Below, one piece after another: positions 1,891 through 15,054 of a stretch of 64,000 bases of DNA. Numbering within the stretch: the first letter of the stretch is position 1; each line of letters begins with the position of its first letter. The position numbers and the translations under genes were made by a program. The notes below the pieces were generated by a model. That model saw nothing but the letters and a program-made list of their open reading frames with translations. It searched no databases and was not told the origin of the DNA. The DNA comes from Pyramidobacter porci. GTDB lineage: Bacteria; Synergistota; Synergistia; Synergistales; Dethiosulfovibrionaceae. The DNA lies in assembly GCF_009695745.1 (NCBI RefSeq), contig NZ_VUNH01000001.1:62001-126000 (forward strand), read 5' to 3'.

Positions 1891-3423
1891 TCACGTCCGG
1901 AACGGACGGCGCTCCGTGGCCGAAAAAGTTTCCTGCTGCGCGGCAAACTGTGCGGGCGAGAGCGTTTCGGTGCGGCCGTTTCGCGTTACGTCGAACAGCC
2001 AGCCGCCTTCGCCCTTTTTGAGGCAGACGGTCTGCGGCGCGCGGATCGCCGCGGCCTCGGCCTGGCGATTTTCGAACGCGCCGCTGCGGTCGTCGCCGAC
2101 GACGCGGAATCCGGAGCTTTCGAGCGCGTCGATCAGCGGCGCGAGCGCGTCCGGCGTTTTGTCGCCTTCCCAGTAAACGTAGACGTCGAACGGGGCGATC
2201 TTGTCGGGCCAGCGTTCGGCGTATTCGCTCACGGCCGAAAGCAGCGCCGTCAGGTCGATCTCGGCGCTCCACGCGGGGACGCGGGTTTTTCCGGAACCGT
2301 TGAAAAAGGTCAGCGACGGTTCGGCAAGGCAGGCCGGGTCCACGGGGCGGAAGACGGCGACGGAGCGCAGTTCGCTCTTTTTCAGCGCCGCGCCGCAATT
2401 GGGGCAACGGTCGCCCGCCTGGAGCAGCGTCACGTCGGCGACGAAATCGGTCTTGAAATCGCGGCCCCAGCAGGCCCCCATTTTATGAAAGCCGGGCTTG
2501 TTGGCGCCGACGACGGCGTTTTTGACGCCGACGGCGCTGGAATCGGCAAGCAGCGTCACCGGGGCGGGCAGCCCCACGGGGCCCATATAGCCGGCCGAAT
2601 CGCCCATGACGGCGGCCAGTTCGGCCGGTTCGGCGGGGCGGACGGACGCGCCCTGGAACGCGGCGCGGACTTTTTCCAGACAGACGTGGCGGTCGGCGCG
2701 CAGGATCACGGCGGCCAGGCCGCGCCCCTCGACGGCGTAGAACATGCACTTGACGACCTGCGACGGCGCGATCTTGAGATATCCGCACAGTTTCTCGACG
2801 GTGGAGCAGTCCGGCGTGGCCACTTCGCGCAGCTCTTCCGGCGCGGCGTCCGACGCCTCTTCGCCGAAGCGGCAGGGGCTGTCGAAGGCGGCCGTCCAGC
2901 CGCAGTCGGGACAGGCCAGCCCTTCTTCGCCGCGGAGCGGCGCTTCGGAACGGCACAACAGATCGACGCGATGCCCCGCGGGCGTCAGACGATCGACGCG
3001 GCGCACGCGAGCCCCCAGCGAGCAGACGGCGCTGCCGACGGTGCGCAGCGCGTCGTTGGCCATTTCGAGCGAGGCTTCGAAATCGCCGTGCAGTCCCAGC
3101 AGGCGGAGTTTGTCTCCGCGGCGCTCGGCGAAGAGCACCGGCAGGTCGCCGGCGCGTTTGATCAGGCGCACGGCGGCGTCGAGGGCGCCGCGGGCGGAAG
3201 CGCCGCAGTCGAGGCGCTGCGGGCGGAAGGCCTCGAGTCTGCGAAGCAGAAAGTCCTCGGCGCGCTGGAAGAGGATCCTCCCCTCCGGCAGCAGGATCAG
3301 CGTTTCGTCGTTGGGGTTCCAGAGGCCGTAACCGCCCTGCGCGATTTTGGCCAGGCCGGGATCGCGCAGTTTCGAGGAGCGCCCGCTCGAGACGGGCATC
3401 AGCAGTTCGCTCATCCATTTCAT
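1891..3423 (-). CDS. ProRS-like protein with intact-looking editing domain but no catalytic motifs
   Basis: The 510 residues align end to end with bacterial prolyl-tRNA synthetase (usually about 570). The N-terminal part is shortened and lacks the motif-2 region. In place of motif 3 (GxYGIGxxR in true ProRS) there is an unrelated stretch near residues 383-395. The YbaK/INS editing domain (about 195-330) looks preserved: K225, G281 and H313 match the spacing of residues that known ProRS editing domains need. CPxC pairs occur at 171-174 and 340-343. I infer a paralogue that cannot charge tRNA but might clear misacylated Ala-tRNA(Pro) or bind tRNA. It is the second gene of the xth operon, with GGGAGA 8 bases before the ATG. 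A degenerating housekeeping copy is less likely, because the frame is intact. Confidence 0.72.
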   Translation of the reverse strand: MKWMSELLMPVSSGRSSKLRDPGLAKIAQGGYGLWNPNDETLILLPEGRILFQRAEDFLLRRLEAFRPQRLDCGASARGALDAAVRLIKRAGDLPVLFAERRGDKLRLLGLHGDFEASLEMANDALRTVGSAVCSLGARVRRVDRLTPAGHRVDLLCRSEAPLRGEEGLACPDCGWTAAFDSPCRFGEEASDAAPEELREVATPDCSTVEKLCGYLKIAPSQVVKCMFYAVEGRGLAAVILRADRHVCLEKVRAAFQGASVRPAEPAELAAVMGDSAGYMGPVGLPAPVTLLADSSAVGVKNAVVGANKPGFHKMGACWGRDFKTDFVADVTLLQAGDRCPNCGAALKKSELRSVAVFRPVDPACLAEPSLTFFNGSGKTRVPAWSAEIDLTALLSAVSEYAERWPDKIAPFDVYVYWEGDKTPDALAPLIDALESSGFRVVGDDRSGAFENRQAEAAAIRAPQTVCLKKGEGGWLFDVTRNGRTETLSPAQFAAQQETFSATERRPFRT

Positions 3424-3439
3424 GGCGTTCTCCCTGCCC

Positions 3440-4210
3440 TCAGTCGGCGAAATCGGCCAGCATGGGCGTGTGGTCCGAGGGCTTTTCCCAGCCGCGCGGC
3501 TCCGCGTCGATCCAGCAGGCCAGGCTTTGTTTCGCCAGCGAGGGGGTGGCGAGCATGTGGTCGATGCGCCAGCCGATGCGGCGTTCCAGCGCGTTTTTGA
3601 CGCGGTAATCGAAAAACGAGTACAGCTCCTCGCCGGGGTGGTGGACGCGCAGCAGATCGATGACCAGCGGCGCGCAGAGCTGCGCGAAGAGATCGCGCAG
3701 CTCCTTGACGAAGCAGACGTGTTCCTTTTTGTTGGCGGGATTGGTCACGTCCAGCTCGGTCGGGGCCACGTTGAGGTCGCCGGTCCAGAGCAGCTTTTCG
3801 TCCTTGCGCGCGGCGATCAGGGCGGCGGTGCGGCGCAGGAATTCCTTTTTGGCCTCGTAGTCGGGGTGGGTGATCTCCTTGCCCTGCGGCACGTAGGTAT
3901 CGAGGATCCAGATGTCGCCGAAGCGCGCGGCGATCAGGCGCGTGTCCCAGAGCGGCGACGCGCCGTCGGCGAAGCCGTGGATCACTTCGTCAGGCTCTTG
4001 TTTCGAGAGGATGGCGACGCCGTTGTAGGATTTCTCGCCGCGGAAGGCGGCGCGGTAGCCGAGTTTTTCCACGTCGGCGAGGGGGAACTCCTGATCCTGC
4101 ACTTTCGTCTCCTGCAGGGCCAGCACGTCCACGCCCGCGCCGGGCAGCCAGCGTTCGAGGATCGGCAGGCGGCTGCGCAGCGAATTTACGTTAAAAGTAG
4201 CGACTCTCAT
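3440..4210 (-). CDS. xth: Exodeoxyribonuclease III (AP endonuclease)
   Basis: A 256-residue exonuclease III. Seen: FNVNSLR at 6-12 (metal-binding N7), LQETK with catalytic E34, the TYVPQG segment, WTGDLNVAP (catalytic D and N) and C-terminal SDHTPM (catalytic histidine). These are the EEP-family active-site residues. The enzyme cleaves DNA 5' of abasic sites and has 3' exonuclease activity in base-excision repair. A longer frame upstream is open, but the start used here has GGAGG 7 bases before the ATG and begins exactly at the conserved MRVATFN. It leads a minus-strand operon with the ProRS-like gene 16 bases downstream. Confidence 0.95.
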   Translation of the reverse strand: MRVATFNVNSLRSRLPILERWLPGAGVDVLALQETKVQDQEFPLADVEKLGYRAAFRGEKSYNGVAILSKQEPDEVIHGFADGASPLWDTRLIAARFGDIWILDTYVPQGKEITHPDYEAKKEFLRRTAALIAARKDEKLLWTGDLNVAPTELDVTNPANKKEHVCFVKELRDLFAQLCAPLVIDLLRVHHPGEELYSFFDYRVKNALERRIGWRIDHMLATPSLAKQSLACWIDAEPRGWEKPSDHTPMLADFAD

Positions 4211-4305
4211 GACACGACCTCCGCAAAAATGTGTGTGCTGAAAAAACGCGCGGCGGAACGCGCCGCCGCCGAAAAACGACTCAAGTCTTTTTTTTCGCGC
4301 GGTTT

Positions 4306-4317
4306 CGATTATAATCG
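4306..4317. promoter_or_regulatory. Palindromic -10 box shared by divergent genes
   Basis: The 12-base palindrome CGATTATAATCG contains TATAAT on both strands and lies between the divergent xth operon and the hypothetical gene at 4356. I see no convincing -35 box on either strand, so the promoter call is tentative. Confidence 0.4.
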
Positions 4318-4355
4318 TTGAAGCAACGTCGAACTTCGCGGAAAACAGGGCTTGT

Positions 4356-5012
4356 TTGTTCCTCATTATACCCGATAGGGCGGTGAAAAGAGTGATTCGT
4401 CCCGAATTTTTCGAGCGGCGCGACCTGACGCCGCTACAGCGCAGCTTCCTGGAATTTCTCAAGGCGTTCCTTTTCATGGTGGAGAGCGCGGCCGGTTCCT
4501 TCGAGGAAAACCAGCCCTCCAATTCGCTGCAGACGGCCCATCAGGCCGAAGTGCTCGACGAACTGGCGCTGAACTGTCTCGATCGCTGCGAGCCGCGCGA
4601 TCGCCGTTCCGTCAGGGAAACGCTGGAGATGGTCGCTTTGATGCGGCGCAGTGCGGCGGCGCTGAAGAAACTCTGCACGGCCGCCGCGGCGCCGCTGACC
4701 GGCCTGGATGAGAGCCGCGCCTTTCTTGGCTCGCTGTGCCGCTGCGTGGCCGATCGGATCGACTGGTCCCACAAGCGCCAGCTGCTCGGCTCCCAGCACC
4801 GCGGCGCCGAAGAAGAGGATCTGGAACTGTCGCTGTCGGAGCTGCCTTCCACGCTGGCGGGCGAGCGGCGCATCGAACGCGTGGAGGCGCTGCTCGATTT
4901 CCGCGACGCGCTGCTGGCGGCGCGGGAACTCTTCGAGGCGGTCGGCGACATCCGCCGCACGACCGACGAGCTGTTTCCGGTCAACGAGGAAAAGTACTGG
5001 CGCAGAAGCTGA
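4356..5012 (+). CDS. Hypothetical helical protein, about 210-218 aa
   Basis: A soluble, cysteine-containing, largely helical protein with no signal peptide or membrane span and no motif I recognise. The longest frame starts at TTG 4356. A GTG at 4383, nine codons in, is equally possible because neither has a strong ribosome-binding site. It is transcribed divergently from the xth operon, apparently as a single gene, and followed by a complex hairpin. Composition is GC-rich like the neighbouring housekeeping genes, so it is probably native. Confidence 0.6.
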   Translation: MFLIIPDRAVKRVIRPEFFERRDLTPLQRSFLEFLKAFLFMVESAAGSFEENQPSNSLQTAHQAEVLDELALNCLDRCEPRDRRSVRETLEMVALMRRSAAALKKLCTAAAAPLTGLDESRAFLGSLCRCVADRIDWSHKRQLLGSQHRGAEEEDLELSLSELPSTLAGERRIERVEALLDFRDALLAARELFEAVGDIRRTTDELFPVNEEKYWRRS

Positions 5013-7458: not shown

Positions 7459-8208
7459 ATGTTCAAACGCATCGCCGCACTTTCCGCTCTGTTTGCTTTG
7501 GCCGCAAGCGCCGCTTTCGCGGCTTCGGCCCTGGACAAGGACACGCTGGTCGCCGCGACCGAAAGCACCTACCCTCCCTACGAGTCGCGCAACGAAAAGG
7601 GCGAGCTGGTCGGCTTCGACATCGAGCTGACCGAGACGGTCGCCAAAAAACTGGGAAAAAAGGTCGAATGGCTCGACATGCCCTTCGATTCGCTGATCCC
7701 GGCGCTGATGTCGGGCAAGGTCGATCTGGTCGCCGCCGGCATGTCGGCGACGCCGGAGCGCGCCAAGCGCGTCAACTTCTCGGCGCCGTACGAGATCTCT
7801 TTCAGCGCTTTCGTCACGGGAGTCGAGAATCCTCCCAAGGACACTGACGAGCTGGCCGGCAAGGTCGTGGCGGTGCAGATCGGCACGGTGCAGGAAAATT
7901 TCGCGCGCAGCCTCGGCAACGTGGAAGTGAAAACGTTCCAGAAATTCGACGACTGCGTGCGCGAGGTCGTGCTCGGCCGCGCCGCCGCGACGCTGATGGA
8001 CATCCCCGTGGCGAAGCAGTACGTGCAGGCCAAGGATTTTGCCGGCAAGGTCACGGTCGCGTTCAACAAACAGATCACCGGCGCCGACAAGGCCATCGCC
8101 ATGCCCAAGCAGGACGAAGCGCTGACCGCCGCGGTCAACGGCGTCATCGAGGAAATGGACAAGAGCGGCGAGCTGGCGGCTCTGCGCGATAAGTGGTTCA
8201 AAGAGTAA
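7459..8208 (+). CDS. Polar amino-acid ABC transporter substrate-binding protein (orphan)
   Basis: A 249-residue family-3 periplasmic solute-binding protein. The signal peptide is about residues 1-21 (basic start, hydrophobic core, AFA cleavage). The mature part shows the family pattern: TYPPYE, GFDIELTETVAKKLG, FDSLIPALMSGKVDLVAAGMS and a C-terminal DKWF. It should capture an amino acid in the periplasm for an inner-membrane permease. No permease or ATPase lies beside it, so the partner must be elsewhere or shared. GGAGG precedes the ATG, and the gene has its own strong promoter and terminator, consistent with high expression. Confidence 0.92.
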   Translation: MFKRIAALSALFALAASAAFAASALDKDTLVAATESTYPPYESRNEKGELVGFDIELTETVAKKLGKKVEWLDMPFDSLIPALMSGKVDLVAAGMSATPERAKRVNFSAPYEISFSAFVTGVENPPKDTDELAGKVVAVQIGTVQENFARSLGNVEVKTFQKFDDCVREVVLGRAAATLMDIPVAKQYVQAKDFAGKVTVAFNKQITGADKAIAMPKQDEALTAAVNGVIEEMDKSGELAALRDKWFKE

Positions 8209-8230
8209 CGCTCATCGATCCTTTGAGAAA

Positions 8231-8267
8231 AAGCCCCTGAAACGGCCTGTGCCGGATTCAGGGGCTT
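8231..8267. terminator. Bidirectional terminator
   Basis: AAGCCCCTGAA (8231-8241) pairs perfectly with TTCAGGGGCTT (8257-8267), with A-rich and T-rich flanks. It separates the convergent binding-protein and ankyrin genes. Confidence 0.85.
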
Positions 8268-8294: not shown

Positions 8295-11200
8295 TTAATT
8301 CGTCTTGATCGGCGACGGCGGGACGGAGTTGGCCAGCACGGACTGCTTGGGCTGGCGGTGAGATTCTTCCACGGATCTGAGCGCGTTTTTTTGGATGATC
8401 TCCAATTTTTTCAGCTCGGCGGCGTGGCTGGCGTCTTTCTGAGCCAGCAGGGCAACGAGGCGCTTTTCATACTCCTGCTTGAGCGCGGCGATCAGTTCCT
8501 CGCCGCTGCGGGCGGCGGCGTTCCGAACCTGTTCGATTTCCGAGGCGCGCCGCGCCGCCAGCTCCCGTTCGCGCTCCGCCAGCCGCCGCGCAAAGTCGAC
8601 GCGCAGCGCGGCCATGTCCTGTTCCTTCTGCTGCTCCGCGCGGGCCAGCGCGCTTTTCAGGCTAAGCTCGGCCCGCGCGGCGGCTTGTTCCATCTCCTGG
8701 CGGTGTTTGGCGTTGAGAACGTCCCTGGAAGTGTCGAACTCGATCTGCTGCTGCGTTTGCTGTTCCTTGAGCATCTTGTCGTAGCGGAGTTCCGCCTGAC
8801 GAAGCGATTGGGCGTAGGCCGTTTCGAGAAGCCGGCTGGCTTCCTGCCGACCCTGCTCGATGCCGGCTTTGGTCGCCGCGGCCTTTTCTTCCGCGGCCGC
8901 GCGCTTTTGAGCTTCGGCGGCGGCCATGGCCGCGTTCAGCGCTTCGCAGCTCTGGAACTGGGCGGCGTCGAAAGCGCGCCGCAGGGCGGAGACTTTTTCG
9001 TTCAGTTCGTCGCCATGGTCCTTCTTGAGTCGATTCAGCTCGTCGGTGTACTGGGCTTCCAATTTGGAAGCGGCGTCGAACATTTCCTGACGATGAACGG
9101 TCTCCAGACGGGCTTTTTCGATCTCGAACGCGGCTTTGAGCTGAGTGTCCTGCGCCGCCAGCTTCTTGTCCAGCTCGGCGTGGAGCTGTTTCTCCCGGCT
9201 GTCCAGACGGGCCTGAACTTCAGCCAGATCCCGGGCGGACTTTTCTTTCTGCGAGTTCAGCTCGGCTTCCAGAGCGGCGGAGATTTCGCGTTCCTTCCGC
9301 AGGCTGGCGTTCAGCACGGCCAGCGTCTCGTTGAACTGCTTCTTCAGGGCGGAGTTCTCCTGCAGGGCAGCTTCCATTTTCTCGTGGAGTTCTTCGTCTT
9401 TCTGGCGGCTTAACTCCGAGATTTTGGCCTCGTGGGCTTCTTCGAGGCGCTTCTGCTGCTCGATCAGTTCCATGGCGTGCCGACTCCGTTCCTGAAGGAG
9501 CGTGTGCCGCTGTCGTTCTTCCAGGGCGGCAACGGCTTCCCGAATTTCCGCGTTAAGCTTCTGTTCGTTTTGCTGCGTAACTTCCTGCAGCTCTCTGGCA
9601 TGCCGATTCTTGAGCTCGGTCAACTGCTGTTCGTATTTCAGGGCGTTTTCTTCAAGCAGACGAGCCTGACGGGATTTCAGGTCGATAACTTCCTGTCGGT
9701 GCTGAGACAGGGCCACGCTTTGATATTGAACGGCCTGGCGGCTCTTTTCCTCGCCGGCACGGATTTGGGCATTCAATTGCTCCACTTCATTTTTGTGAGC
9801 TTCCTCGAGATGGGACTTGACCGTCGCCAAATTGTTCTCCGCCTCGGCGCGTTCTTTGCCGAAATTGGCTTCGGCGGCCGCTTTTTCTTCGGCCAGCTGA
9901 TCCGATCGCGCTTCGGCGGCCTGCAGGCGAGCAACGAGCGCGTCGATTTCGCCTTTCTGCTTTTGGAAGTTCAGCGTGTTTTCTTCAACCAGTTTGAGGT
10001 TTTTCTGCATTTCGCTCTGCCATAGCGCCGTCAGCGTGTCGATGTTCCCGCGGTTCAGCTCCAGATCTTTTCGCTGGCTGGCTTGGAGTGCCGTCAGATT
10101 ATCGGTGAGCCGGCGGATCAGGGCGTTCTGCTGTGCCGTTTGTTCGTGGCTGGCCTGAAGCTGTTTTTCGGCGTTTTGGGCCGTCTGCGTTGCGAGGTCG
10201 GCTTTTTTCCGCAGTTCGGCAGTGGCTGTCGTGAGGCGAAGGATCTCGTGCTGGTCAGCGGCCATTTTTTTATAGAGCGGCGCGACCCGCGGATCGTCCG
10301 CGGCGCCGCCGGCGCTTTTCTGGCGCTCGGCGCCGATCTGGATGCCGCGTTCTTCCGCTTCGTTCACGCTTGCGGCAATGGAGGCAAGCAGCTGCAGATC
10401 CTCGGTGGCGAACGCCGGATTGGCCTGGGCGTAATCGAGGGCGGTCTTGCCGTCGACGTCGCGGTAATCGACGCGGGCTCCGTGCGCGAGAAGCGCGGAA
10501 AGGACGTTCGGGTTGCCGTTCGCCGAAGCGGCCAGGATCAGCGCGGTGCGGCCGCGGCCATCGCGGGCGTTTTCGCGGGCGCCCCACTTCATGAGAACGC
10601 CGACGACGTCGGGATGTGCGTTGTACTGCGCGGCCCACATCAGCGGCGTCAGGCCGTCGACGGGAGCGTTCGGATCGGTGCGCGCTTCGAGGTAGAGGCC
10701 GACGCGCCGGGCCGTACCGCGGCGGCAGAGTTGGGCGAAGCGTTCCGGTCCCATGGGCGCGGGGGCATTCTTTTGCCGCGTACGCTCTTTGAGCGTGACC
10801 AGCTGTTCGGGAGCGTATTTTCTGCTGTTTTCTATGTAGCTCCAGGCCGTCTTTTTGTTGGCTCCGGTCACGGTCGGATCGGCGCCTTCGTCAAGCAGCG
10901 TGATCAGAACTTCGAAGGCGTTGCCGGCCCGCGCGGCCAGCATGAACGGTGTGGCGCCGGAGTTATCCGCGGCGGCAAGATCGGCGCCGAGATCGATCAG
11001 CGCCGCCGTGATCTCGGGATGGGGATTGCGCGCCGCGGCGAAGCTGAGCGGCGTCCAGCCGCGGGAGCCGCGTTCCTGCAGCTCGGCTCCGGCCGCGACC
11101 AGGGCGACGATAATCTCGGGATTGTCGCTGTCCTGGGCGGCGACCGCCAGGGCGCGCAGGTTGTCTTTGTTGGCGGCGTTGACGTCGCTTCCGGCGTTGA

Positions 11201-11453
11201 CGAGCAGTTTGATTTTGTCGGGATCGGCGGCCTTGCCTTTGGCCTGAGCGGCCATCATCAGCGGCGTGTTGCCTTTGGCGTCGGCTTTGCCGACGGAGAT
11301 CCCTTCGTCTTTTAGAGCTGCGGCGACCTGCAGCGCGTCGCCGTTGAGGCAGAGGTCCATGAACTCCTTCTGCGAAAGTCCCCACGCGGGGGTACAGAAA
11401 CAGACGGCGGCGAACGCGAAAAACGCCGAGAACTTGCTTTTGAGCAGAGTCAT
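8295..11453 (-). CDS. Exported ankyrin-repeat / long coiled-coil protein, 1052 aa
   Basis: An N-terminal signal peptide (about 1-25, cleavage near PAWG) is followed by seven or eight ankyrin repeats in two groups (about 57-205 and 260-360; TPLMMAA, TPLSFAA, TPLMWAA and TALILAA cores). Then comes a coiled coil of roughly 600 residues (about 400-1020) very rich in E, K, Q and A. The C-terminus is short, with two prolines, and lacks a membrane anchor. It would lie in the periplasm or be exported. Ankyrin repeats bind proteins and the coiled coil may span or brace the envelope, but no substrate can be named. AAGGAGG lies 13 bases before the ATG, longer than normal. It is a single gene. Confidence 0.85.
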   Translation of the reverse strand: MTLLKSKFSAFFAFAAVCFCTPAWGLSQKEFMDLCLNGDALQVAAALKDEGISVGKADAKGNTPLMMAAQAKGKAADPDKIKLLVNAGSDVNAANKDNLRALAVAAQDSDNPEIIVALVAAGAELQERGSRGWTPLSFAAARNPHPEITAALIDLGADLAAADNSGATPFMLAARAGNAFEVLITLLDEGADPTVTGANKKTAWSYIENSRKYAPEQLVTLKERTRQKNAPAPMGPERFAQLCRRGTARRVGLYLEARTDPNAPVDGLTPLMWAAQYNAHPDVVGVLMKWGARENARDGRGRTALILAASANGNPNVLSALLAHGARVDYRDVDGKTALDYAQANPAFATEDLQLLASIAASVNEAEERGIQIGAERQKSAGGAADDPRVAPLYKKMAADQHEILRLTTATAELRKKADLATQTAQNAEKQLQASHEQTAQQNALIRRLTDNLTALQASQRKDLELNRGNIDTLTALWQSEMQKNLKLVEENTLNFQKQKGEIDALVARLQAAEARSDQLAEEKAAAEANFGKERAEAENNLATVKSHLEEAHKNEVEQLNAQIRAGEEKSRQAVQYQSVALSQHRQEVIDLKSRQARLLEENALKYEQQLTELKNRHARELQEVTQQNEQKLNAEIREAVAALEERQRHTLLQERSRHAMELIEQQKRLEEAHEAKISELSRQKDEELHEKMEAALQENSALKKQFNETLAVLNASLRKEREISAALEAELNSQKEKSARDLAEVQARLDSREKQLHAELDKKLAAQDTQLKAAFEIEKARLETVHRQEMFDAASKLEAQYTDELNRLKKDHGDELNEKVSALRRAFDAAQFQSCEALNAAMAAAEAQKRAAAEEKAAATKAGIEQGRQEASRLLETAYAQSLRQAELRYDKMLKEQQTQQQIEFDTSRDVLNAKHRQEMEQAAARAELSLKSALARAEQQKEQDMAALRVDFARRLAERERELAARRASEIEQVRNAAARSGEELIAALKQEYEKRLVALLAQKDASHAAELKKLEIIQKNALRSVEESHRQPKQSVLANSVPPSPIKTN

Positions 11454-11611
11454 GATTTCTGGAAAGCCTCCTTGAAATTTGCCTTGAGAGAATTTTCATG
11501 TAGAATTGAGACACCCGTCCCCGTTGGCGTCGGGCGTGTTGTCTTTTTCCGCTGCAGGGCGGCAAAATAAAGGCGGACGTTGACGAGCGAAGACGATACT
11601 TTACATAAATC

Positions 11612-11679: not shown

Positions 11680-13290
11680 ATGACGACAACTGTGCGAGAA
11701 ACGTTGGCCCTTGAATCTTTCAAAGGATTTCATGTGCTGGCGGGATTTGGCGGGCTTGACCGGGAAATTTCCACCACGACTTTTATCGAAGCCCCCGATT
11801 CGTGGAAATGGATCCGCGGCGGCGAGTGCGTGCTTACGCTGGCCTACGCGTTTCAGACGGAGGAACAGCTGCTCGCGCTCGTCCGCGAACTGATCGAGCG
11901 TCAGGCCACCTGCATTGGCATCAAGACCGAACGCTACATCAAACAGGTTCCCCAGTCGGTGCTCGATTTGGCCGACCAGCACAAATTCCCCATCATCGAC
12001 ATCCCCATTTCCGTCCCCTTTGCCGCCATCATTCATCCGGTGCAGTCGCTGATCATTCACGATCAGGCGCGTCTGCTCAAATACTCCGAAAAAGTTCGCC
12101 ACACCTTTTTCGGCCTCAGCGTGCGGGCGGCGGAGATTGAGGAGATCATGCAGGTGCTCTGCGAATTCACGCACGTGGATCTGGCCTTCATGGATCTCGC
12201 GACGGACAGGAAATACATTTTCTCCGATTCGCCCCAGCTGCCGGCGGCGTTGGGTACGCTTCCGCTCAAGGACGTGCTGAATCTTTATCCCCACGAGGAC
12301 GTGATGCTCAACGGCCGGCTTCTGGGACACCTCATTTTCGACGCCGACGCCGAAAAGCTCAAAGACCGCTGGTCGGAGATCCCGATCAACCAGGCCAAAG
12401 GCGCGCTGCTGCTGTACTTTCAGCGCCGCGAAGCTCAGCATCAGGTGGAATCGCGTTATCGCAACGAATTCGTGCAGGATCTGATCACCCGCAACATCCG
12501 CATGGAGCAGGAGGCGTGGAACCGCGCCAAAAGCTTCAACTGGAATCTCGAAGGCCCCCAGCGCGTGGTCATCGTCGACATCGACAACTACAAGAGCTGC
12601 CTGACCCGCGCCATTTCCGGCGGCCAGGGCGTGAACGCCATCGAAAACAGCAAGTCGCGCATCTACGCGATCGCCCGATCGTTCCTGGCGCGTCTTAACG
12701 GCGGAAAATATCCCTACGCAGAGATGAGCGACTCGATTGTCTTTATCTTTCCTTCGGGCGACGAAAACGGGGGAGGATTCTTTAACGACCTGCTGCGGCG
12801 CACTCTGGTCGATATGATGAAGGTAATCCAGACCGAAACCGGTTTTACGGTGACAGTCGGCGTGGGCGATCCGTGCAACAACGTCTTCGACTGTCCCGAA
12901 AGCTACCGTCAGGCCCAGCAGGGACTTGAACTTCTGCGTCTCAGCACGGGCGGCAACGTCATCGCATCGTGGTCGGAAATGGGAGTCTATAAACTGCTGC
13001 ATGGCGTGGCCGGAACTTCCGAGGGCCGCAGCTTCATGGAGCGCTATCTGGGGCCGCTCCTGAACGATGAACGGCCTGCCGGCGCCACGCTGCTGGATAC
13101 GCTTCAGACGACGGTGAGCTGCAATTGGAACTTGAAAGATGCGGCCATGGCGATGGACGTTCACTATAACACGCTCAAGTACCGTTGGCGGAAGATCTGC
13201 GATCTCCTCGGCATCGATCCGTCCAAAAGCGGCGACCGACTCAACGTGATGATCGCATTGAAGCTGTACCGCATGCACAAAAACGCGTAA
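11680..13290 (+). CDS. PucR/CdaR-family transcriptional regulator
   Basis: The 536 residues have the PucR layout: an N-terminal PucR sensing domain (about 1-125; GGECVLTLAYAF, IKTERYI), a central GGDEF-like CdaR region (about 270-420) and a C-terminal PucR-type helix-turn-helix (about 475-525; NWNLKDAAMAMDVHYNTLKYR). Known members sense metabolites and control purine, sugar-acid or amino-acid catabolism. It precedes the DUF5058/M20 peptidase cluster in the same orientation, which I take as its likely target. An AAGGAG lies upstream of the ATG, and an inverted repeat sits in its own promoter. The 570-residue frame on the other strand is a shadow. Confidence 0.88.
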   Translation: MTTTVRETLALESFKGFHVLAGFGGLDREISTTTFIEAPDSWKWIRGGECVLTLAYAFQTEEQLLALVRELIERQATCIGIKTERYIKQVPQSVLDLADQHKFPIIDIPISVPFAAIIHPVQSLIIHDQARLLKYSEKVRHTFFGLSVRAAEIEEIMQVLCEFTHVDLAFMDLATDRKYIFSDSPQLPAALGTLPLKDVLNLYPHEDVMLNGRLLGHLIFDADAEKLKDRWSEIPINQAKGALLLYFQRREAQHQVESRYRNEFVQDLITRNIRMEQEAWNRAKSFNWNLEGPQRVVIVDIDNYKSCLTRAISGGQGVNAIENSKSRIYAIARSFLARLNGGKYPYAEMSDSIVFIFPSGDENGGGFFNDLLRRTLVDMMKVIQTETGFTVTVGVGDPCNNVFDCPESYRQAQQGLELLRLSTGGNVIASWSEMGVYKLLHGVAGTSEGRSFMERYLGPLLNDERPAGATLLDTLQTTVSCNWNLKDAAMAMDVHYNTLKYRWRKICDLLGIDPSKSGDRLNVMIALKLYRMHKNA

Positions 13291-13530: not shown

Positions 13531-13650
13531 AGAAACGACGTCGGCGGTGAGCGCTGAAGGAGAAAAGCTGACGTGAGGCTTTATCGAAAAAGGCCGGAAC
13601 GTTGTTCCGGTTCATTTTATGGCGATCATTTTCGAGGAGGTACGGTTTTC

Positions 13651-14370
13651 ATGGAGTCTTTGCAGGAAGTTATGAGAATTGGCAACCAGCCCATGGTCTG
13701 GGCTCTCTGCGCCGTCACCGTCGTGGTGTCGCTGGTCCAGTCGCTGCTGTTCACCCGTCTGGCCAAGAGGACGGCCCGCGAAGCGCAGATCAATCCGGAA
13801 ATCACCAAGACGGCGTTCCGCGTCGGACTGATCTCGGCGATCGGTCCCGCCATCGGCGTCTTCATCGTCATGGTCGGGCTGATGGCGACGATCGGTTCGC
13901 CCATGGCCTGGCTGCGCCTGTCCATCATCGGCGCGGCCCCCACCGAGCTGACGGCGGCCACTTTGGCGGCCGAAGCGGCCGGCAGCGGCCTGGGCAAGGA
14001 GAATTTCACGCTTCAGGTCATGGCCGTGACCTGGTTCGCGATGGCCCTGAACGGCTGCGGTTGGCTCCTTGTCAGCGGGCTTTTCGCTCCCTATCTGGAA
14101 AAACTCCGTGAAAAAATGGGCGGCGGCGACACGAAATGGCTGGCCGCGATCGGCGGCGCGGCCTCTCTGGGCGTCTTCGGCTATCTGTGCAGCAACGAGA
14201 TCCGCCGCGGCACGGGCAACATGCTCGCCGCGCTGACCGGAGCTGTGGCGATGGTCTTCCTGGTTAAGTGCGTCGTGCCGAAGCATCCCAAGCTCACCGA
14301 ATACGCGCTCGGCATCGCCATGCTTTTCGGCATGGCCTGCGCCGTGATCCACGACGTCGTCATGATGTAA
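13651..14370 (+). CDS. DUF5058-family multi-pass membrane protein
   Basis: A 239-residue inner-membrane protein with five or six hydrophobic spans. It shows the pattern I associate with DUF5058: start MESLQEVMRIGN, an IGPAIGVFIVMVGLMATIG span, and WLRLSIIGAAPTELTAA. The longer frame upstream is rejected because GAGGAGG lies 11 bases before the ATG at 13651. The molecular role is unestablished; I infer a transporter subunit because it is followed by a second membrane protein and a cytoplasmic M20 peptidase, which suggests uptake of an amidated or peptidic substrate that is then hydrolysed. Confidence 0.82.
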   Translation: MESLQEVMRIGNQPMVWALCAVTVVVSLVQSLLFTRLAKRTAREAQINPEITKTAFRVGLISAIGPAIGVFIVMVGLMATIGSPMAWLRLSIIGAAPTELTAATLAAEAAGSGLGKENFTLQVMAVTWFAMALNGCGWLLVSGLFAPYLEKLREKMGGGDTKWLAAIGGAASLGVFGYLCSNEIRRGTGNMLAALTGAVAMVFLVKCVVPKHPKLTEYALGIAMLFGMACAVIHDVVMM

Positions 14371-14397
14371 CCAGGATGGATGAAGGAGGCTTTTTCT

Positions 14398-15054
14398 ATG
14401 GATCTGAACGCTCAGTGGAAAAAAGGTTGTATCCGTATCGGCACGCCGACGAATCTTCTCGCCGCGGCCACGAGTTTTTTGCCCGTTTTGTGGCTGTGCA
14501 GCGCGTATAACTGCTGGCCCAGCCTCGACGTGGTGCTGAAGGCCTGGGGGCTTGTGGCCGCGTCCTTCGGTGCGTTCTATTTCGTCGAGCCGATTTCCTA
14601 TTATTCCGTGATCGGCCTTTCCGGGTCGTATCTCGTGTTCCTTTCCGGCAACATTGGCAACATGCGCGTGCCCTGCGCGGCGCAGGCCCTCGACGCCACG
14701 CACACCGAACCCGGCACGCTTCAGGCCGAAGTGGTCTCGACACTGGGTATCTGCGGCTCCATCGTCACCAATCTGATCGCCGTCCTCCTGGCCGCGTTCA
14801 TCGGCGCGTCCGTCGTTGCCGCGCTGCCCAAGGTCGTTTCCGACGCTTTCGTCAAGTACGCGGCCGGCGCGATTTTCGGCGGCACTTTCGGCAACTTCGC
14901 GATCAAATATCCCAAGATTGCCGTTTTCGGCCTCGCCATCCCTCTGGCGCTGATCTACTTCGCCAAAACTCCGGCCTACGTTACCATCCCCGCGGCGGTC
15001 TTCGGCTGCATCGCCATCGCCCGCGCGTTCTACGTGATGGAGAAGAAAGCCTGA
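14398..15054 (+). CDS. Multi-pass membrane protein, partner of the DUF5058 protein
   Basis: The 218 residues have about six hydrophobic segments and glycine-rich turns (GLSGSYLVFLSGNIGNMRVP, AAGAIFGGTFGNFAIKYPK). The start at 14398 is chosen because AAGGAGG lies 7 bases before it; an in-frame ATG at 14380 overlaps that ribosome-binding site. It follows the DUF5058 gene by 27 bases, so the two are probably co-expressed and may form one transport complex. I do not recognise a named family beyond this pairing. The only polar regions are the termini and one loop. Confidence 0.75.
   Translation: MDLNAQWKKGCIRIGTPTNLLAAATSFLPVLWLCSAYNCWPSLDVVLKAWGLVAASFGAFYFVEPISYYSVIGLSGSYLVFLSGNIGNMRVPCAAQALDATHTEPGTLQAEVVSTLGICGSIVTNLIAVLLAAFIGASVVAALPKVVSDAFVKYAAGAIFGGTFGNFAIKYPKIAVFGLAIPLALIYFAKTPAYVTIPAAVFGCIAIARAFYVMEKKA

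Follow-up and report, generated by a model that had tools for sequence, protein, structure and literature searches.

A putatively exported ankyrin protein with a predicted long helical rod in Pyramidobacter

Pyramidobacter (Synergistota, Dethiosulfovibrionaceae) is a host-associated genus; the species described first is from the human mouth. It encodes a 1052-residue, 113-kDa protein (here the ankyrin-rod protein) in which a putative signal peptide is followed by a predicted ankyrin solenoid and about 640 residues of predicted helix. Exported ankyrin proteins of this family are common in the phylum, and the ankyrin-rod protein elaborates on them at the level of the genus. The working proposal, which is given a probability of about 0.45, is that it is a soluble, Sec-exported, periplasmic ankyrin scaffold oligomerised through its coil. 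Discussion of bacterial ankyrin proteins has centered mostly on effectors made by intracellular pathogens; in this case many such proteins are exported by an anaerobic phylum, one genus of which has equipped two of them with rods.

The gene and its neighbors

The gene occupies positions 8295 to 11453 of the window (the whole 64,000-nucleotide stretch of DNA analyzed) on the minus strand, with its ATG at 11453-11451 and its stop codon at 8297-8295. The open reading frame given in the preliminary description is real and its coordinates are exact. A ribosome-binding site, AAGGAGG (11467-11473, minus strand), lies 13 bases upstream of the ATG, and an intrinsic terminator (8228-8266, minus strand; stem of -25.2 kcal/mol with a T tail) follows about 29 bases past the stop. 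The terminator sits between the gene and a convergent plus-strand gene for an amino-acid-type solute-binding protein (SBP_bac_3; 7459-8208), while a gene for a PucR-family regulator (11680-13290, plus strand) is divergent on the other side. Both neighbors are conserved at the locus, and the flanks are alike in the Pyramidobacter genomes G111, C12-8, and G113: a CCA-type nucleotidyltransferase and the solute-binding protein on one side, and the PucR regulator, a DUF5058 protein, and an M20 peptidase on the other. The solute-binding protein and the PucR regulator point to no envelope system, and no secretion genes occur among the neighbors examined. Between the PucR regulator and the M20 peptidase, window positions 13573-15054 encode the DUF5058 protein and then a membrane-like protein of 224 residues that matches nothing in Pfam; this block is kept across the genus and resembles a substrate transporter operon.

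Export and the search for an anchor

On inspection, the first 25 residues (11379-11453, minus strand) form a signal peptide of the signal peptidase I type that starts basic, continues with a hydrophobic core, and closes with the cleavage site A-W-G; it reads MTLLKSKFSAFFAFAAVCFCTPAWG up to the cleavage site and LSQKEF beyond it. The orthologues have PPAWA before LSQKEF, and a paralogue in the same genome has GGVSA before MTQKEF. The A/V-x-A/G cleavage site thus holds a constant position directly before the ankyrin cap. That the site is kept in sequences so divergent is the chief argument for export and strongly suggests that the protein leaves the cytoplasm by way of a cleavable Sec signal peptide, as the preliminary description had proposed.

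The search for an anchor in the membrane or the wall found none. Lipoprotein anchoring is ruled out, as neither cysteine of the signal peptide has a lipobox. Pfam detects ankyrins only, with no SLH match at E 0.1 and neither an autotransporter barrel nor any other domain for surface anchoring, and the charged rod and short polar tail run to the C terminus with no outer-membrane barrel, membrane anchor, or anchor motif. Like Omp-alpha of Thermotoga and the OmpM/SlpA proteins, the ankyrin-rod protein is an exported protein of a diderm with a long rod, which here is a predicted amphipathic helical region of irregular 7/11/15 periodicity that may form a coiled coil. It differs from them in having an ankyrin head and in lacking an SLH or barrel match and an outer-membrane anchor. 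As the searches detected neither an anchor nor a domain that binds the wall, a tether of the Omp-alpha/OmpM type is ruled out.

The ankyrin head

The Pfam Ank_2 profile matches the protein at 110 bits (E 6.6e-32; cut-off 27.3). AlphaFold, given ten Synergistales sequences, predicts one row of ten helix pairs over residues 28-380 (pLDDT 89.9, pTM 0.81), the final helix extending to residue 380. The first half (residues 28-226; 10776-11372, minus strand) comprises six pairs and opens with the cap QKEFMDLCLNG; the second (residues 236-380; 10314-10748, minus strand) comprises four pairs and opens with a second cap-like motif, PERFAQLCRRG. It is this second cap-like pair, at residues 236-256, that had led to the description of two groups of ankyrin repeats, in place of which the model predicts a single solenoid. 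Sequence matches in the PDB are to solved ankyrins and designed DARPins. The fold search also returns ankyrins and DARPins but with poor global superposition, so no specific structural relative is claimed. The profile for the Dot/Icm effector AnkG (NCBIfam NF043022) scores 73.4 bits, through the ankyrins only, against a cut-off of 500, and this assignment was rejected; ankyrins are common to both proteins, and the ankyrin-rod protein has a Sec-type signal peptide.

Exported ankyrin proteins are known from other bacteria. Bd3460 of Bdellovibrio is a periplasmic protein that blocks DD-endopeptidases (PMC4686830) and, like the ankyrin-rod protein, consists of a signal peptide and an ankyrin solenoid; however, it is only 23 kDa and has no rod. 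AnkB of Pseudomonas aeruginosa and RARP-1 of Rickettsia parkeri are, as summarized in PMC9553169, further exported ankyrin proteins reported in the periplasm. The Bd3460 precedent, together with the existence of Imm-Ank, a class of immunity proteins (PMC3482391), suggests a protein whose head blocks an exported toxin or one of the cell's own envelope enzymes while the coil merely multimerises it. This is improbable, as no toxin or cell-wall peptidase gene adjoins the ankyrin-rod gene among its conserved neighbors and inhibition has no need of a rod of some 640 residues and conserved length. Membership in the Imm-Ank polymorphic toxin immunity class was rejected on the same absence of an adjoining toxin gene, the conserved neighbors being the solute-binding protein and the PucR regulator.

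The helical rod

A linker predicted with low confidence (residues 381-395; 10269-10313, minus strand) leads from the head to the helical rod (residues 396-1031; 8361-10268, minus strand), which ends in a proline-containing tail with no predicted structure (residues 1032-1052; 8298-8360, minus strand). Linker and tail are both fast evolving, and proline is absent from residue 392 to residue 1035. The full-length AlphaFold model was built from seven sequences and has a pTM of 0.39, so it was used for helix content alone. It predicts helices at residues 391-524, 535-656, and 663-1031, interrupted near 525-535 and 657-662 and weak over 813-860; the low-confidence zones lie near 519-537, 650-680, and 813-860. 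The rod alone has no match in a sequence search of the PDB.

Straight or right-handed coiled coils have periods of 11/3 and 15/4. The hydrophobic autocorrelation of the whole rod peaks at lags of 11 and 15 residues (z of 5.4 each) and then at 26, 37, and 41. At lag 7 it reaches a z of only 1.2, and a canonical heptad coiled coil through the rod was therefore rejected. The 11- and 15-residue repeats start at about residue 536, while a heptad-like period near 3.5 is confined to roughly residues 424-535. In the rod of the G111 orthologue (85% identical), the peaks at 11, 15, and 26 recur. A COILS-type score in a 28-residue window (with weights calibrated only on shuffles, and hence relative) gives P > 0.5 for 436 rod residues in seven runs with register shifts; on the same relative scale the coil half scores 1.42 against 1.32 +/- 0.02 in its own shuffles. 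Pairs of K and E at i/i+4 are enriched (40 against 18 +/- 4), and the rod may be partly of the single alpha-helix (SAH) kind, but a coil is preferred because a hydrophobic seam is present. In a test for internal duplication, the best self-match within the rod scored 79 against 69 +/- 6 in shuffles of 26-residue blocks.

The architecture put forward in the preliminary description, in which a long helical rod carries a head for binding, is supported. Of the 600-residue coiled coil it described, the great length stands, at about 640 predicted helical residues, but the periodicity is a mixture of 7, 11, and 15 residues and the predicted breaks make a continuous coiled coil doubtful in part.

Repeats of 11 residues also occur in apolipoproteins and alpha-synuclein, where they lie on the membrane surface. 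The 11-residue periodicity of the rod would suit a lipid-binding amphipathic helix of this kind, but its low mean hydrophobicity (0.08) and low moment (0.26), its net charge of -11, and the strong 15-residue lag, which better suits coiled-coil packing, make such a role very improbable.

Orthologues and selection

The gene is found at the same locus in three other Pyramidobacter species and is missing there from a fifth, G114, in which the PucR-M20 block is present and glutamine-synthetase-like and transporter-like genes (named by inspection) take its place. The orthologue of Pyramidobacter sp. C12-8, which is 86% identical, is the sole match in the named genome collection. In comparison with the orthologue at 85% identity, the gene has a dN/dS of 0.28 overall, 0.20-0.27 in the ankyrins, and 0.17-0.39 in segments of the rod; values for the linker and tail are above 1 and come from few sites. 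By this sequence comparison the gene is under selection. It encodes a protein that evolves faster than its close neighbors (85% against 95-98% identity).

The ankyrin solenoid is the most conserved part (90-92% identity) while the rod drifts more (76-88%). The length of the rod in codons is constant among the four species, except for an 8-base deletion in C12-8. Constant length with drifting sequence is the pattern described for coiled-coil spacers (PMC5082667). The C12-8 deletion (locus L021) falls at codon ~657, near locus base 9970, and the frameshift is predicted to remove the distal rod, so that the full rod may be dispensable there. The deletion is seen in one assembly and may be real; its position coincides with a predicted helix break. 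In the G113 orthologue a single-base gap interrupts an A-run in the ankyrins and another does so in the linker; both are read as sequencing errors.

Rod length and place in the envelope

If straight, the rod would measure 95 nm (639 residues at 0.1485 nm), about twice the 50-nm rod with which Omp-alpha spans the Thermotoga periplasm (PMC5082667). A straight rod of this length is too long to stand upright across an ordinary periplasm, and it would have to lie flat, fold back, kink, or reach outside; no figure for the width of the Pyramidobacter periplasm was found in the literature searched. The earlier suggestion that the rod could reach across much of the periplasm understated its length. How the Synergistota envelope accommodates a rod that would, if straight, exceed the width of the periplasm is a direct question of physics.

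From these features we infer a periplasmic, oligomeric scaffold that binds partners. Sec export would deliver the soluble protein into the envelope, where the N-terminal solenoid of ten helix pairs would bind one or more envelope proteins. The long helices of several copies would self-associate, probably side by side in the parallel sense, to give a rod between stiff and semi-flexible, and the ankyrin heads displayed together could cluster their partners or hold them at a set distance. As the protein has no anchor of its own that could be found and is too long to stand upright, the rod would most likely run along the periplasm or fold back at its breaks. The scaffold proposal draws on the signal peptide, which is kept in the orthologues, the paralogue, and many ankyrin proteins of the phylum; on a solenoid that is both well predicted and best conserved; on a rod that keeps its length while its sequence drifts, as coiled-coil spacers do; on the amphipathic 11/15 periodicity conserved in an orthologue; on a paralogue whose coil differs in length although its head is the same; and on Bd3460, RARP-1, and AnkB, which work in the periplasm (the latter two as summarized in PMC9553169). 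The lack of an anchor, the uninformative neighbors, the C12-8 frameshift, and the absence of the gene from the locus in one relative count against it.

Folding back could also take place within one chain. The breaks at 525-535 and 657-662 and the weak stretch at 813-860 divide the rod into roughly periplasmic lengths, and three to four helical segments of ~120-180 residues (18-27 nm each) could pack as antiparallel hairpins into a compact stalk of about periplasmic width. This arrangement is unlikely, as the breaks are of low confidence and lack proline in a model that is itself of modest confidence.

The unexplained length of the rod keeps alive a reading in which the protein crosses the outer membrane and acts outside, on the surface or released, with the head binding proteins of the host or of neighboring microbes and the rod providing reach. 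A 95-nm rod that does not fit upright in the periplasm, a host-associated genus, and a lineage-specific protein that evolves faster than its neighbors are all consistent with this, and RARP-1 of Rickettsia typhi is reported (PMC9553169) to leave the cell via Sec-TolC. However, in the same source R. parkeri RARP-1 remains periplasmic, and with no autotransporter barrel or surface-anchoring domain found by Pfam and no secretion genes among the examined neighbors, an external site of action, though a serious rival, is less probable than a periplasmic one.

The paralogue and the Synergistales ankyrin family

The search of the genome for paralogues that the preliminary description had suggested yielded one, in which the same head carries a coil that is shorter. 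This protein of 561 residues (G000 contig 12, 35665-37206; loci L023 and L064) resembles the ankyrin-rod protein in signal peptide position and ankyrin layout at 38% identity. Its coil is alanine-rich and ~176 residues long; in G113 the coil has ~258 residues and contains 2.3 tandem copies of a unit of 82 residues, and coil length varies between species by such copies. While the heads of the two paralogues are plainly homologous, the coil-to-coil match scores 128 against 112 +/- 10. As the coils are not demonstrably related, each rod may have been acquired or remodeled on its own. The paralogue has a conserved C terminus, LGGLLxLLRRA, which might serve it as a short amphipathic anchor. A further reading, which is a long shot, takes the two paralogues as spacers of two sizes in an extended, intermediate-filament-like filament or mesh in or on the envelope, built of right-handed (11/15-residue) coiled-coil rods of at most 95 nm bearing ankyrin heads.

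The ankyrin part of the ankyrin-rod protein has matches in 105 of 183 Synergistales genomes. Among 79 distinct ankyrin reading frames from fetched loci, which were picked by similarity to the ankyrin-rod protein and so do not amount to a census, 40 carry a signal peptide by a crude pattern, and only the ankyrin-rod gene and its paralogue encode a substantial coil. Members of this exported family (cap xxEFxxLCxxG) share the signal peptide type, cap, and repeats and are 32-42% identical over the ankyrin domain; those sampled outside Pyramidobacter have no long coil. The combination of domains had been called unusual for a free-living bacterium, a view that does not hold for a host-associated genus in an order where ankyrin proteins are common and many have signal peptides. 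The same head with rods of 0, ~176, ~258, and ~640 residues provides a natural experiment on what exported ankyrins bind and why reach or clustering is selected. No paper on Synergistales ankyrin proteins was found in the literature searched, and the single paper found in which Pyramidobacter and ankyrin are both named deals with an ankyrin gene of humans.

Six more ankyrin-repeat loci, several with signal peptides, lie on contigs 2, 3, 10, and 12 of the same genome. In another genome (G107, contig 52), a row of ankyrin genes includes one (L069, locus positions 2150-4726) that joins the ankyrins to an N-terminal region containing a tandem pair of ~110-residue repeats; these begin DPEVRFAYLAGIAKEA and DDKGARFAYLVGMAMVATVDGSIDPKEKK and are TerB-like by eye.
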